The notes under the pieces were generated by a model. It saw only the letters and a list, made by a program, of their open reading frames with translations. It had not been told where the DNA came from and searched no databases. A stretch of 41,294 nt of DNA from a virus, in IMG/VR virus record IMGVR_UViG_3300027714_000039, positions 1 to 41,294 of that record. One strand, written 5' to 3'. Each line of letters begins with the position of its first letter. Position 1 is the stretch's first letter. The translations under genes were made by a program, and so were the position numbers. Shown piece by piece: positions 15,495 to 22,659 of this stretch.

Positions 15495-15566
15495 GGCCCG
15501 GTCGTCTAATGGTTAGGACGCATGGTTTTCATCCATGTAATCGGAGTTCGATTCTCCGTCGGGCTA
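15495..15566 (+). tRNA. tRNA-Glu (UUC)
   Basis: The cloverleaf is complete. The acceptor GGCCCGG pairs with TCGGGCT, with G-U at both ends and A73. The D-arm starts TCGTCTAATGGTTAGGAC, the anticodon stem is CATGG/CCATG with loop TTTTCAT and anticodon TTC at 15528-15530, and the T-arm is CGGAG-TTCGATT-CTCCG. CCA is not encoded. The gene lies between a GC-rich scar and promoter module copy 5. Phage tRNAs usually supplement codons favoured by the phage, and GAA is very frequent here. Confidence 0.9.
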
Positions 15567-15577
15567 CTAATATATAA

Positions 15578-20843: not shown

Positions 20844-21296
20844 ATGACAACAACAACACTCGTAAACACGCCTTTCGGCACAAGATTATTCCCAACTGAT
20901 TTATTATTTAAGAATTTTTTCGATCAAGCTTCGGCTTTTGAGACTAATGTAGACAAGAAGATTAACCATCCTGTCGATATTATCTATACGGAAGAAGCCT
21001 TAATATTTGAAATAGCAGCAGTTGGATTAAATAAGAAAGACATCGATCTTTCTACAGAGGATGGAACAACGTTAAAGGTTTCATACACTAAACCAACCAT
21101 CGAATCTAATGATTCAGACCAAGACGCAGGAGAATATATCCATAAGGGTATTGCAAAACGGTCTTTTGATTTAGGATGGAAGATTAGTCCTAAGTTTGAT
21201 TTAACAAAAATTACGGCATCCATGGAAAACGGCCTTCTAAGATTAGAAGTACCTGTTTCTCCAGATAGTACGCCAAAAACAATTACAATTAAATAG
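20844..21296 (+). CDS. Small heat-shock protein, Hsp20/alpha-crystallin
   Basis: After a variable N-terminus with Phe-rich helix (LLFKNFFDQ), the alpha-crystallin domain runs from about residue 42 (NHPVDIIYTEEALIFEIAAVGLNKKDI) to about 138, with the diagnostic ENGLLRLEVPV near the end. The C-terminal tail has an ITIK sequence resembling the I-x-I motif that joins oligomers. Length (150) is normal. Hsp20 proteins are ATP-independent holdases, and T4-like marine phages often carry one, probably to help virion assembly. It has its own promoter and a strong AAGGAG site. Confidence 0.92.
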   Translation: MTTTTLVNTPFGTRLFPTDLLFKNFFDQASAFETNVDKKINHPVDIIYTEEALIFEIAAVGLNKKDIDLSTEDGTTLKVSYTKPTIESNDSDQDAGEYIHKGIAKRSFDLGWKISPKFDLTKITASMENGLLRLEVPVSPDSTPKTITIK

Positions 21297-21339: not shown

Positions 21340-21585
21340 ATGAAAATATTTTACAATGGAAATAATGCTTATCAAGTTGTTCGCACAATAAATGTTAGTA
21401 CGTGTGATCCGAAAAGATATGGCATTAATAGAACAGACGAACAAGCTTACAATATGATCCTTCAGCTTTGGAGAGATGAACACCACTGTGATCATGTTCT
21501 ACGGCGAGAAAACGATTTTATGTTGTGTAGAACTATTAAAGATGTTCAAATTATAAATAATAATGATTATAATGATATTTATTAA
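21340..21585 (+). CDS. Hypothetical protein, 81 aa
   Basis: I do not recognise it. It is a small soluble protein with three Cys and several His (DEHHCDHVLRREN). It lies between Hsp20 and the tmRNA and may be co-transcribed with either. Its stop codon is two bases before the tmRNA acceptor piece as drawn. Confidence 0.6.
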   Translation: MKIFYNGNNAYQVVRTINVSTCDPKRYGINRTDEQAYNMILQLWRDEHHCDHVLRRENDFMLCRTIKDVQIINNNDYNDIY

Positions 21586-21587
21586 TG

Positions 21588-21648
21588 ACCGTTAGTACTT
21601 TTATTAGCTGCTCAAATGGACGAGGGTTCGACTCCCTCCATCTCCACT
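21588..21648 (+). ncRNA. ssrA: Permuted tmRNA: acceptor piece (3' part of tRNA domain)
   Basis: The T-arm GAGGG-TTCGACT-CCCTC (21622-21638) is followed by CATCTCC (21639-21645) and A73 (21646), the typical end of a bacterial tmRNA (GGAC before the T-arm is also typical). The matching acceptor 5' strand is not upstream but at 21716-21722. CTCAA (21611-21615) can pair with TTGAG after that strand to form helix P2. CCA is not encoded. The left boundary is set only by the preceding stop codon and is uncertain. Confidence 0.85.
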
Positions 21649-21715
21649 CAACGGACTATATTCATTTAGATATAATATGGTCCTCGGTGATAAACTATAT
21701 TCAATTGAATATAAT
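21649..21715 (+). other. Intervening segment of the permuted tmRNA
   Basis: This linker joins the acceptor 3' end to the coding-piece 5' end and would be cut out. It contains two hairpins. GGACTATATT pairs with AATATGGTCC around an 11-base loop, and TATATTCAA-TTGAATATA is a perfect 18-base palindrome. Such structure next to both mature ends fits recognition by tRNA-processing enzymes. Confidence 0.75.
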
Positions 21716-21985
21716 GGGGATGACTTGGATATTGACATTGAGATAAGGATTTAAGGAAGGTCACGCATAACAGGCGAACATGTTGAAATGGCAATGGCGG
21801 CTTAATAAAGTCCCCAGACCCAACGGCAAAAAGAAGCCACGTCGTTTAAGCTTCGGTGGATAGTGGAAAAAATAAAAACGAATGAGGGTATTAGGAACTC
21901 TTACCCTCTAGTTTTTGCGTCTGAGACGTCGCGGATAGCTAAAAGAGTTCAGCTGGGTGGGTTGGTGGATTTAACTAAAATGATT
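21716..21985 (+). ncRNA. ssrA: Permuted tmRNA: coding piece with tag
   Basis: GGGGATG (21716-21722) pairs with CATCTCC at 21639-21645 over all seven positions and puts G3 opposite U70, the identity pair for alanyl-tRNA synthetase. TTGGATATTGACA follows, comparable to the TGGATTCGAC of the tmRNA D-region. The tag frame starts near 21773. After it are GAGGGTA/TACCCTC (21884-21890 with 21902-21908), with AAAAAC/GTTTTT outside, and AGCT-rich hairpins that may form pseudoknots. PK1 between P2 and the tag seems short or missing. The right end is approximate. Confidence 0.85.
21773..21808 (+). other. tmRNA tag reading frame GEHVEMAMAA
   Basis: Reading from GGC at 21773 gives GEHVEMAMAA followed by TAA TAA. 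The ten-residue length, the hydrophobic AMAA end (a ClpXP-type degron, compare ALAA) and the double stop are typical of tmRNA tags. Tags beginning GE are known from Bacteroidota. The resume codon is inferred from this pattern. ACA just before it is the alternative. Confidence 0.8.
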
Positions 21986-21996
21986 GAATAATATAT

Positions 21997-22659
21997 ATGA
22001 TTAAAAATTGGAAAATAGATGATGTGTTAGACCCAGACTCAAACTTTTGGTCGACCGTCCACGATGAAATAACTATATATTTAGAAGCTATTGGTGATTC
22101 TGAACCAAGAGCATTTTATACGTTCTCAAAGAAAATACAGGATTATCTTAATTCATTTAAGAAACAACCTAGCTTTTCATTAGATATGTTTGGTATAGAC
22201 ATGCAAGAACCAAGACATACTCCAGATGAAATAAATCAAGCAGATGCACTTATATCTACAATAATTTGGGATTTAGTTAGTGAAGAAGATAAGCACAATC
22301 TCTTTGATGATTCAGTAGAATATTTTAATGAATTTATAGACTCCTGTCCAAATTCCCTATTAGATGATTTTGTCAGAAAACTAGCTAATGGTGAAAATCT
22401 AATTCCCGAATCAAGAAGGAAACCTAAAAATATAAAGGAAATTATTTTTAATACTAGTGTATCAGAACAGGGTTGTACAATAGCAATGTATAACAAAAAT
22501 TTAATAGTATCATCCATTAATGAATCTATAGTATTAAAGGTTAAATTAGCATTTGAAACTGCTGGAAACATACTTAGAGAATATAGAAAGGATATAAAAC
22601 CATCTGGAATATCTGTCCATAGTTATATTTTTGAAATAAAAAATAATCGCCCAAATTAG
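21997..22659 (+). CDS. Hypothetical protein, 220 aa
   Basis: I do not recognise it. It is a soluble, mostly helical, acidic protein with a possible beta-rich C-terminal domain (residues about 145-215, TSVSEQGCTIAMYNKNLIVSS). It directly follows the tmRNA and ends one base before the 400-aa membrane protein gene, so the two are likely co-expressed. Confidence 0.75.
   Translation: MIKNWKIDDVLDPDSNFWSTVHDEITIYLEAIGDSEPRAFYTFSKKIQDYLNSFKKQPSFSLDMFGIDMQEPRHTPDEINQADALISTIIWDLVSEEDKHNLFDDSVEYFNEFIDSCPNSLLDDFVRKLANGENLIPESRRKPKNIKEIIFNTSVSEQGCTIAMYNKNLIVSSINESIVLKVKLAFETAGNILREYRKDIKPSGISVHSYIFEIKNNRPN

Follow-up and report, generated by a model that had tools for sequence, protein, structure and literature searches.

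The marine phage DNA analysed here, a stretch of 41,294 nucleotides referred to below as the window, carries downstream of an Hsp20 gene (20844-21296) a permuted tmRNA gene, in which the piece with the T-arm and the 3' acceptor strand precedes the piece with the 5' acceptor strand and the tag (Table 1). ARAGORN called a permuted tmRNA at 21554-21896 with the tag GEHVEMAMAA and two stop codons, and the Rfam model RF04321 (tmRNA_permuted) matched 21587-21805 with 56.4 bits (E=1.7e-8, cut-off 47); the gene occupies 21586-21860. The preliminary description of the locus had proposed checks with ARAGORN and with tmRNA covariance models, and both programs gave a positive result. The pairings named there are all present in the sequence, with CATCTCC-A73 (21639-21646) against GGGGATG (21716-21722) and G3 opposite U70 in the acceptor stem, TTGAG (21738-21742) against CTCAA (21611-21615) as a P2-like pairing, and a tag frame GEHVEMAMAA that runs into TAA TAA (21773-21808). 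The interval 21588-21985 assigned to the tmRNA in that description does contain it, but the tmRNA ends near 21860, and 21881-21966 is a different RNA element. A scan of the whole record with RF00023 gave two weak matches (23 and 14 bits), both below the cut-off, and a complete linear tmRNA, which could have made decayed fragments of the present pieces, is therefore absent from the window.

Table 1. Features of the permuted tmRNA locus (positions in the window)
Feature	Position	Strand	Remarks
Promoter-like element ATATTTAT	21575..21582	+	just 5' of tmRNA; motif also before many genes of this phage
Acceptor piece	21586..21646	+	ARAGORN, RF04321, alignment and covariation in 42 relatives
Outer-helix strand TGACC	21586-21590	+	within acceptor piece
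Small hairpin of acceptor piece	21591-21608	+	
P2 3' strand	21611-21618	+	within acceptor piece
T-arm	21622-21638	+	within acceptor piece
Acceptor 3' strand; A73	21639-21645; 21646	+	within acceptor piece
Intervening sequence, 69 nt, long form	21647..21715	+	two hairpins of 22-nt repeat (repeat and fold analysis)
Coding piece, 5' part	21716..21763	+	RF04321 alignment; compensatory changes with acceptor piece
Acceptor 5' strand GGGGATG	21716-21722	+	in coding piece, followed by D-loop
P2 5' strand	21736-21742	+	in coding piece
Outer-helix strand GGTCA	21759-21763	+	in coding piece
Tag reading frame GEHVEMAMAA, TAA TAA	21773..21808	+	ARAGORN; resume codon GGC at 21773
Pseudoknot 3' of tag	21820..21859	+	read from sequence; tmRNA gene 3' end near here
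Structured RNA leader of next gene	21881..21966	+	outside tmRNA

The gene does not encode CCA after A73, where CTC comes next. The coding piece spans 21716 to about 21860 and shows no evident pseudoknot between P2 and the tag. The stems of the pseudoknot behind the tag (AACG 21822-21825 with CGTT 21843-21846; GAAGC 21833-21837 with GCTTC 21850-21854) both persist in relatives despite sequence change. The 3' end of the tmRNA was placed near 21860 because this pseudoknot is directly followed, in the relatives L139 and L185, by a terminator-like hairpin with a run of T.

Related loci were reached through the Hsp20 gene, which led to 69 viral loci; in 21 of these ARAGORN detected a permuted tmRNA downstream of Hsp20, and it called one more in L101. 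Among the 27 close Hsp20 relatives 21 retain the tmRNA at the same locus and six are without it, which indicates that the gene is dispensable. A pattern scan of viral contigs, which requires an exact T-arm and so captures one subset, gave 100 stretches, many from the tmRNA family of the window; a BLASTN search of isolate phages with the locus gave no match. The similar loci that the preliminary description suggested looking for in viral metagenomes thus exist, and 42 family members could be aligned (one gap was shifted by hand in eight rows). The window accordingly belongs to a phage family of wide distribution and is no one-off, and relatives reach 64-73 bits with RF04321. Across the 42, pairs are kept in the acceptor stem (294/294, 100%), the T-stem (210/210), P2 (292/294, 99.3%) and the outer helix (207/209, 99.0%), and G3.U70 is found in all 42. 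No strand-shuffled control attained the pairing observed between the pieces, so this pairing of 99-100% is not due to chance. Together with the ARAGORN call and the RF04321 score above cut-off, the covariation in these relatives bears out the two-piece tmRNA that had been proposed for this phage.

The tag evolves as a coding sequence under in-frame purifying selection: its pN/pS is 0.36 in frame against 1.8 and 2.0 in the other frames, its end AMAA is found in 42/42 relatives, its length is 10 residues in 40 of the 42, and every complete member closes the frame with a stop codon. Much longer tags, of 37 residues (GTQIKSVKAGIFASLAAIRLLATETVATEESVYAMAA and a homologue that has diverged from it), are encoded by the family tmRNAs of L139 (8575-8707 of the minus strand and downstream), L175 (from 9933) and L223.

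In most of the 42 family members aligned, the element ATATTTAT stands a few bases ahead of the acceptor piece. In the window 12 of its 16 plus-strand copies fall between called genes, where intergenic DNA makes up 16% of the total, and on both strands 21 copies are observed against 11.9 expected. This distribution suggests that ATATTTAT probably acts as a promoter, and, since the motif is enriched between genes and stands just before the acceptor piece in relatives, that transcription probably begins at the acceptor piece. The recurrent intergenic motif TTATATTTATACTATAA(ATAA), which occurs at 14, 11373, 11926, 15648, 16058, 20752 and other positions of the window, probably represents a class of promoters in this phage.

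Behind the tmRNA, the RNA leader of the next gene, that at 21997, forms a hairpin (21884-21890 with 21902-21908) whose loop pairs with that of a second hairpin (21895-21902 with 21943-21950), and this loop-loop pairing is above that of partner shuffles. It is always found upstream of genes encoding xxWxIDDVLDPxSxFW proteins and gave no Rfam match of note. The leader was considered as a further pseudoknot of the tmRNA and rejected, being present without a tmRNA in L004-L006 and missing beside intact tmRNAs in L008, L017, L018 and L101; it is therefore a distinct element, and a candidate new cis-regulatory RNA. Its core GCGTCTGAGACGTC..GATAGCT was seen in the window, L003-L007, L012-L016, L019-L026, L032, L060, L061, L187, L213 and L215. 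At one promoter site close relatives thus occur in four states, with tmRNA and leader present or absent independently: both in the window, L003 and others, the leader alone in L004-L006, the tmRNA alone in L008, L017, L018 and L101, and neither in L009-L011.

The intervening sequence of the window has an identity of 97-100% in L017, L018 and L101, whereas the acceptor and coding pieces have only 67-94%. A second long form is common to L022, L216 and L217 (94-99% identity), and L022 and L023 differ by one base in the flanks but have unrelated intervening sequences. Unrelated short forms also occur in phages that are nearly identical. These comparisons indicate that the intervening sequence behaves like a mobile cassette, passing between tmRNA genes that have diverged; the simplest idea for its movement is that it may recombine between the conserved flanks. 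In the window, L017, L018, L022, L101, L215, L216 and L217 the long intervening sequence consists of a 22-nt hairpin repeat that is present twice.

The baseplate protein of the phage is closest to those of Microcystis phage Mel-JY01 and Flavobacterium phage immuto, and the T-arm of the family member L003 is closest to those of Cellulophaga, Maribacter and crAss-like phages. The gene starts are rich in A, and only 14 of 56 genes have a Shine-Dalgarno core. The nearest named phages, immuto among them, the closest T-arms and these A-rich starts with few Shine-Dalgarno motifs make a host from the Bacteroidota likely. The tag begins with GE, as tags of Bacteroidota may generally do. The record is a 41-kb fragment, and the T4-type genes found in it are those of the baseplate wedge (phrog_219, phrog_261) and an ATP-dependent ligase only; the label of a T4-like phage in the preliminary description is a tentative one. 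The window also carries a tRNA-Glu (TTC) gene at 15495-15567. A further RNA, ~215-260 nt long, was noticed 5' of the Hsp20 gene, at a distance of about 1-2 kb, in L033 (8140-8420), L035, L036, L037, L039, L040, L046, L048, L049, L050 and L052. Its acceptor stem and T-arm covary, the letters of its D-arm resemble those of tRNA-Leu, and its conserved core, AAAGAGTAC .. GGTACTT.AAAAACT, forms a likely pseudoknot; the four loci scanned gave no Rfam match, ARAGORN made no credible tRNA call, and it is possibly a tRNA-like RNA.

We consider it probable that the locus encodes a functional two-piece tmRNA which is processed and charged by the host and rescues ribosomes with the tag GEHVEMAMAA during infection. 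As predicted from the gene structure, a single precursor would start near 21586 at the phage promoter, and the host would cut out the intervening sequence, with RNase P acting at 21716 and with 3' trimming and CCA addition at A73. The resulting acceptor and coding RNAs would stay joined via the acceptor stem, P2 and the outer helix. The G3.U70 pair leads to recognition by alanyl-tRNA synthetase, and the host enzyme would charge the tmRNA through it. Neither this record nor any of 33 other phage records (34 in all) contained an SmpB gene, so the tmRNA must use the SmpB of the host, which would bring it to stalled ribosomes; these would switch to the GEHVEMAMAA frame and end at the double stop. 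During infection, with mRNAs being cut, the tmRNA would free ribosomes for reuse and label truncated proteins for the proteases of the host, for which AMAA may be a signal. The likely role is ribosome rescue during infection.

A different role is conceivable, in which the RNA is charged or bound by SmpB and mainly blunts trans-translation of the host. The tag of the window is indeed unlike commonly known bacterial tags, and a role of this kind has been proposed for the RNA of mycobacteriophage DS6A, which consists of a tRNA-like domain only and inhibits the endogenous tmRNA (PMC11915505, PMC4131195). A decoy, however, requires no tag, and here the frame is kept under purifying selection with a stop codon in the complete members, which makes this role less likely than rescue; we regard it as improbable. 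That the locus is a decayed relic or the remnant of an integration site is suggested by the common occurrence of tmRNA fragments as attachment sites. This reading is refuted by the covariation of the two pieces and scarcely deserves any credence, given also the complete structure, the compensatory changes across many lineages and the maintained tag; nor was an integrase found among the proteins scanned, which are a part of the proteome.

The origin of this probably functional gene was approached with a covariance model, R1, built from the phage family of the window. Family members from outside the training set score 92-141 bits. The score is 81 bits for L131, a viral contig whose tag differs, 72 for Maribacter phage Panino, mostly 60-68 for those viral contigs that have AND...ALAA tags and 49-51 for crAss-like phages. 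Betaproteobacteria reach 47 bits (over the tRNA-like part only), alphaproteobacteria 23-47 bits and the linear tmRNA of Cellulophaga phage Calle 28 bits; a scan of other relatives, run without a control, gave no match. Alphaproteobacterial two-piece tmRNAs have the T-loop GGGGGCGGTA where the phage family has GGGTTCGA, and a longer pre-tag element. The combination of the alpha-type T-loop GGGGGCGGTACCC and the longer pre-tag region occurs in alphaproteobacterial genomes and not in the phage family; the beta-type acceptor piece and pre-tag element CGAGAGGCGACTGCCGTAAGCAGAGCAA, carried by L199 and L201, are likewise absent from the phage family. R1 scores and these differences in T-loop and pre-tag element place the phage family nearest to the tmRNAs of other phages, away from the alpha- and betaproteobacterial ones tested, and no bacterial donor was found among the latter. 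A scan for the permuted layout with the D-loop start of the family across 84,980 species gave six loci, of which four are betaproteobacterial, one is in an Actinomycetota MAG and one belongs to a Pelagibacter MAG, where it sits on a small contig. The tmRNA of this last contig is a family member with a 37-residue tag, and the contig is probably a misbinned phage contig. Another phage family with permuted tmRNAs and tags G(T/A)YN(A/T)PLALAA was met in L125, L129, L153, L155, L157, L160 and L181; its pre-tag element GGCGACTGCCGTAAGCAGAGCAA is also present in betaproteobacterial permuted genes.

The gene may derive by capture from one of the bacterial lineages known to have permuted tmRNAs (alpha, beta or cyano), its tag changing later, an origin that is compatible with a functional tmRNA. 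The overall layout is the same, phages with AND...ALAA tags give the intermediate R1 scores quoted above, and since permutation is rare, capture is the cheaper assumption. Against it stand the low scores, other T-loop and longer pre-tag element of the alphaproteobacterial tmRNAs, as well as the match of the betaproteobacterial ones solely over the tRNA-like part; we hold capture to be quite possible, if somewhat short of probable. Descent from an alphaproteobacterial (SAR11-like) tmRNA in particular is unsupported by T-loop, pre-tag element and scores. The separate permutation raised in the preliminary description would have been a phage-borne one of a Bacteroidota-type tmRNA, spread via marine, flavobacterial and crAss-like phages, with exchangeable intervening cassettes and with tags rewritten to 37 residues in two members, and we offer it tentatively, as a rather unlikely course of events.

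In the literature two-piece tmRNAs are attributed to three lineages of bacteria, alpha, beta and cyano, and a large phage family that differs from these in type offers a way to test how many permutations took place and where. The natural series of tmRNA present, absent, with another tag or with another intervening sequence also opens a way into the question of why a phage should carry a ribosome rescue system of its own. As far as the literature searched shows, the family, its tags including those of 37 residues, the cassette-like exchange of intervening sequences and the modular locus are undescribed. A permuted tmRNA in a phage is nevertheless a known kind and not the unusual find it was initially taken for, since 53 of 133 unique phage tmRNA structures, mostly marine or aquatic, are predicted to be two-piece (PMC9004378) and permuted tmRNAs are annotated in the crAss-like phages cr10_1 and cr125_1 and in Maribacter phage Panino; the 2025 tmRNA database holds 79 phage sequences (PMC11915505).

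Compared with RF04321, which merges the alpha, beta and cyano families and whose seed comes from these three lineages (PMC11915505), the window has the same order of acceptor piece, intervening sequence and coding piece, the same acceptor stem, T-arm and G3.U70, and a tag frame. It differs in its weak score of 56 bits (alphaproteobacteria 115-164, a betaproteobacterium 104), in having no PK1-like element and in its GE...AMAA tag. The tmRNAs of Methylophilales phage Melnitz and the pelagimyophages (PMC9004378) are likewise phage-encoded, permuted and marine, but by their description they are set apart as of alphaproteobacterial type, and the Melnitz copy is tied to a glutamine riboswitch. The phages cr10_1, cr125_1 and Panino are Bacteroidota phages whose permuted tmRNAs match the family model over their full length (49-72 bits), and cr125_1 also has the outer helix and the pseudoknot sequence CAACGG...GTCGTAAAAGC; their tags (GNNFVTDYTQLAVA, GNFYVTDYTRIAA and GKVMNVSFAPTVRQFA) are different, and their intervening sequences are longer.
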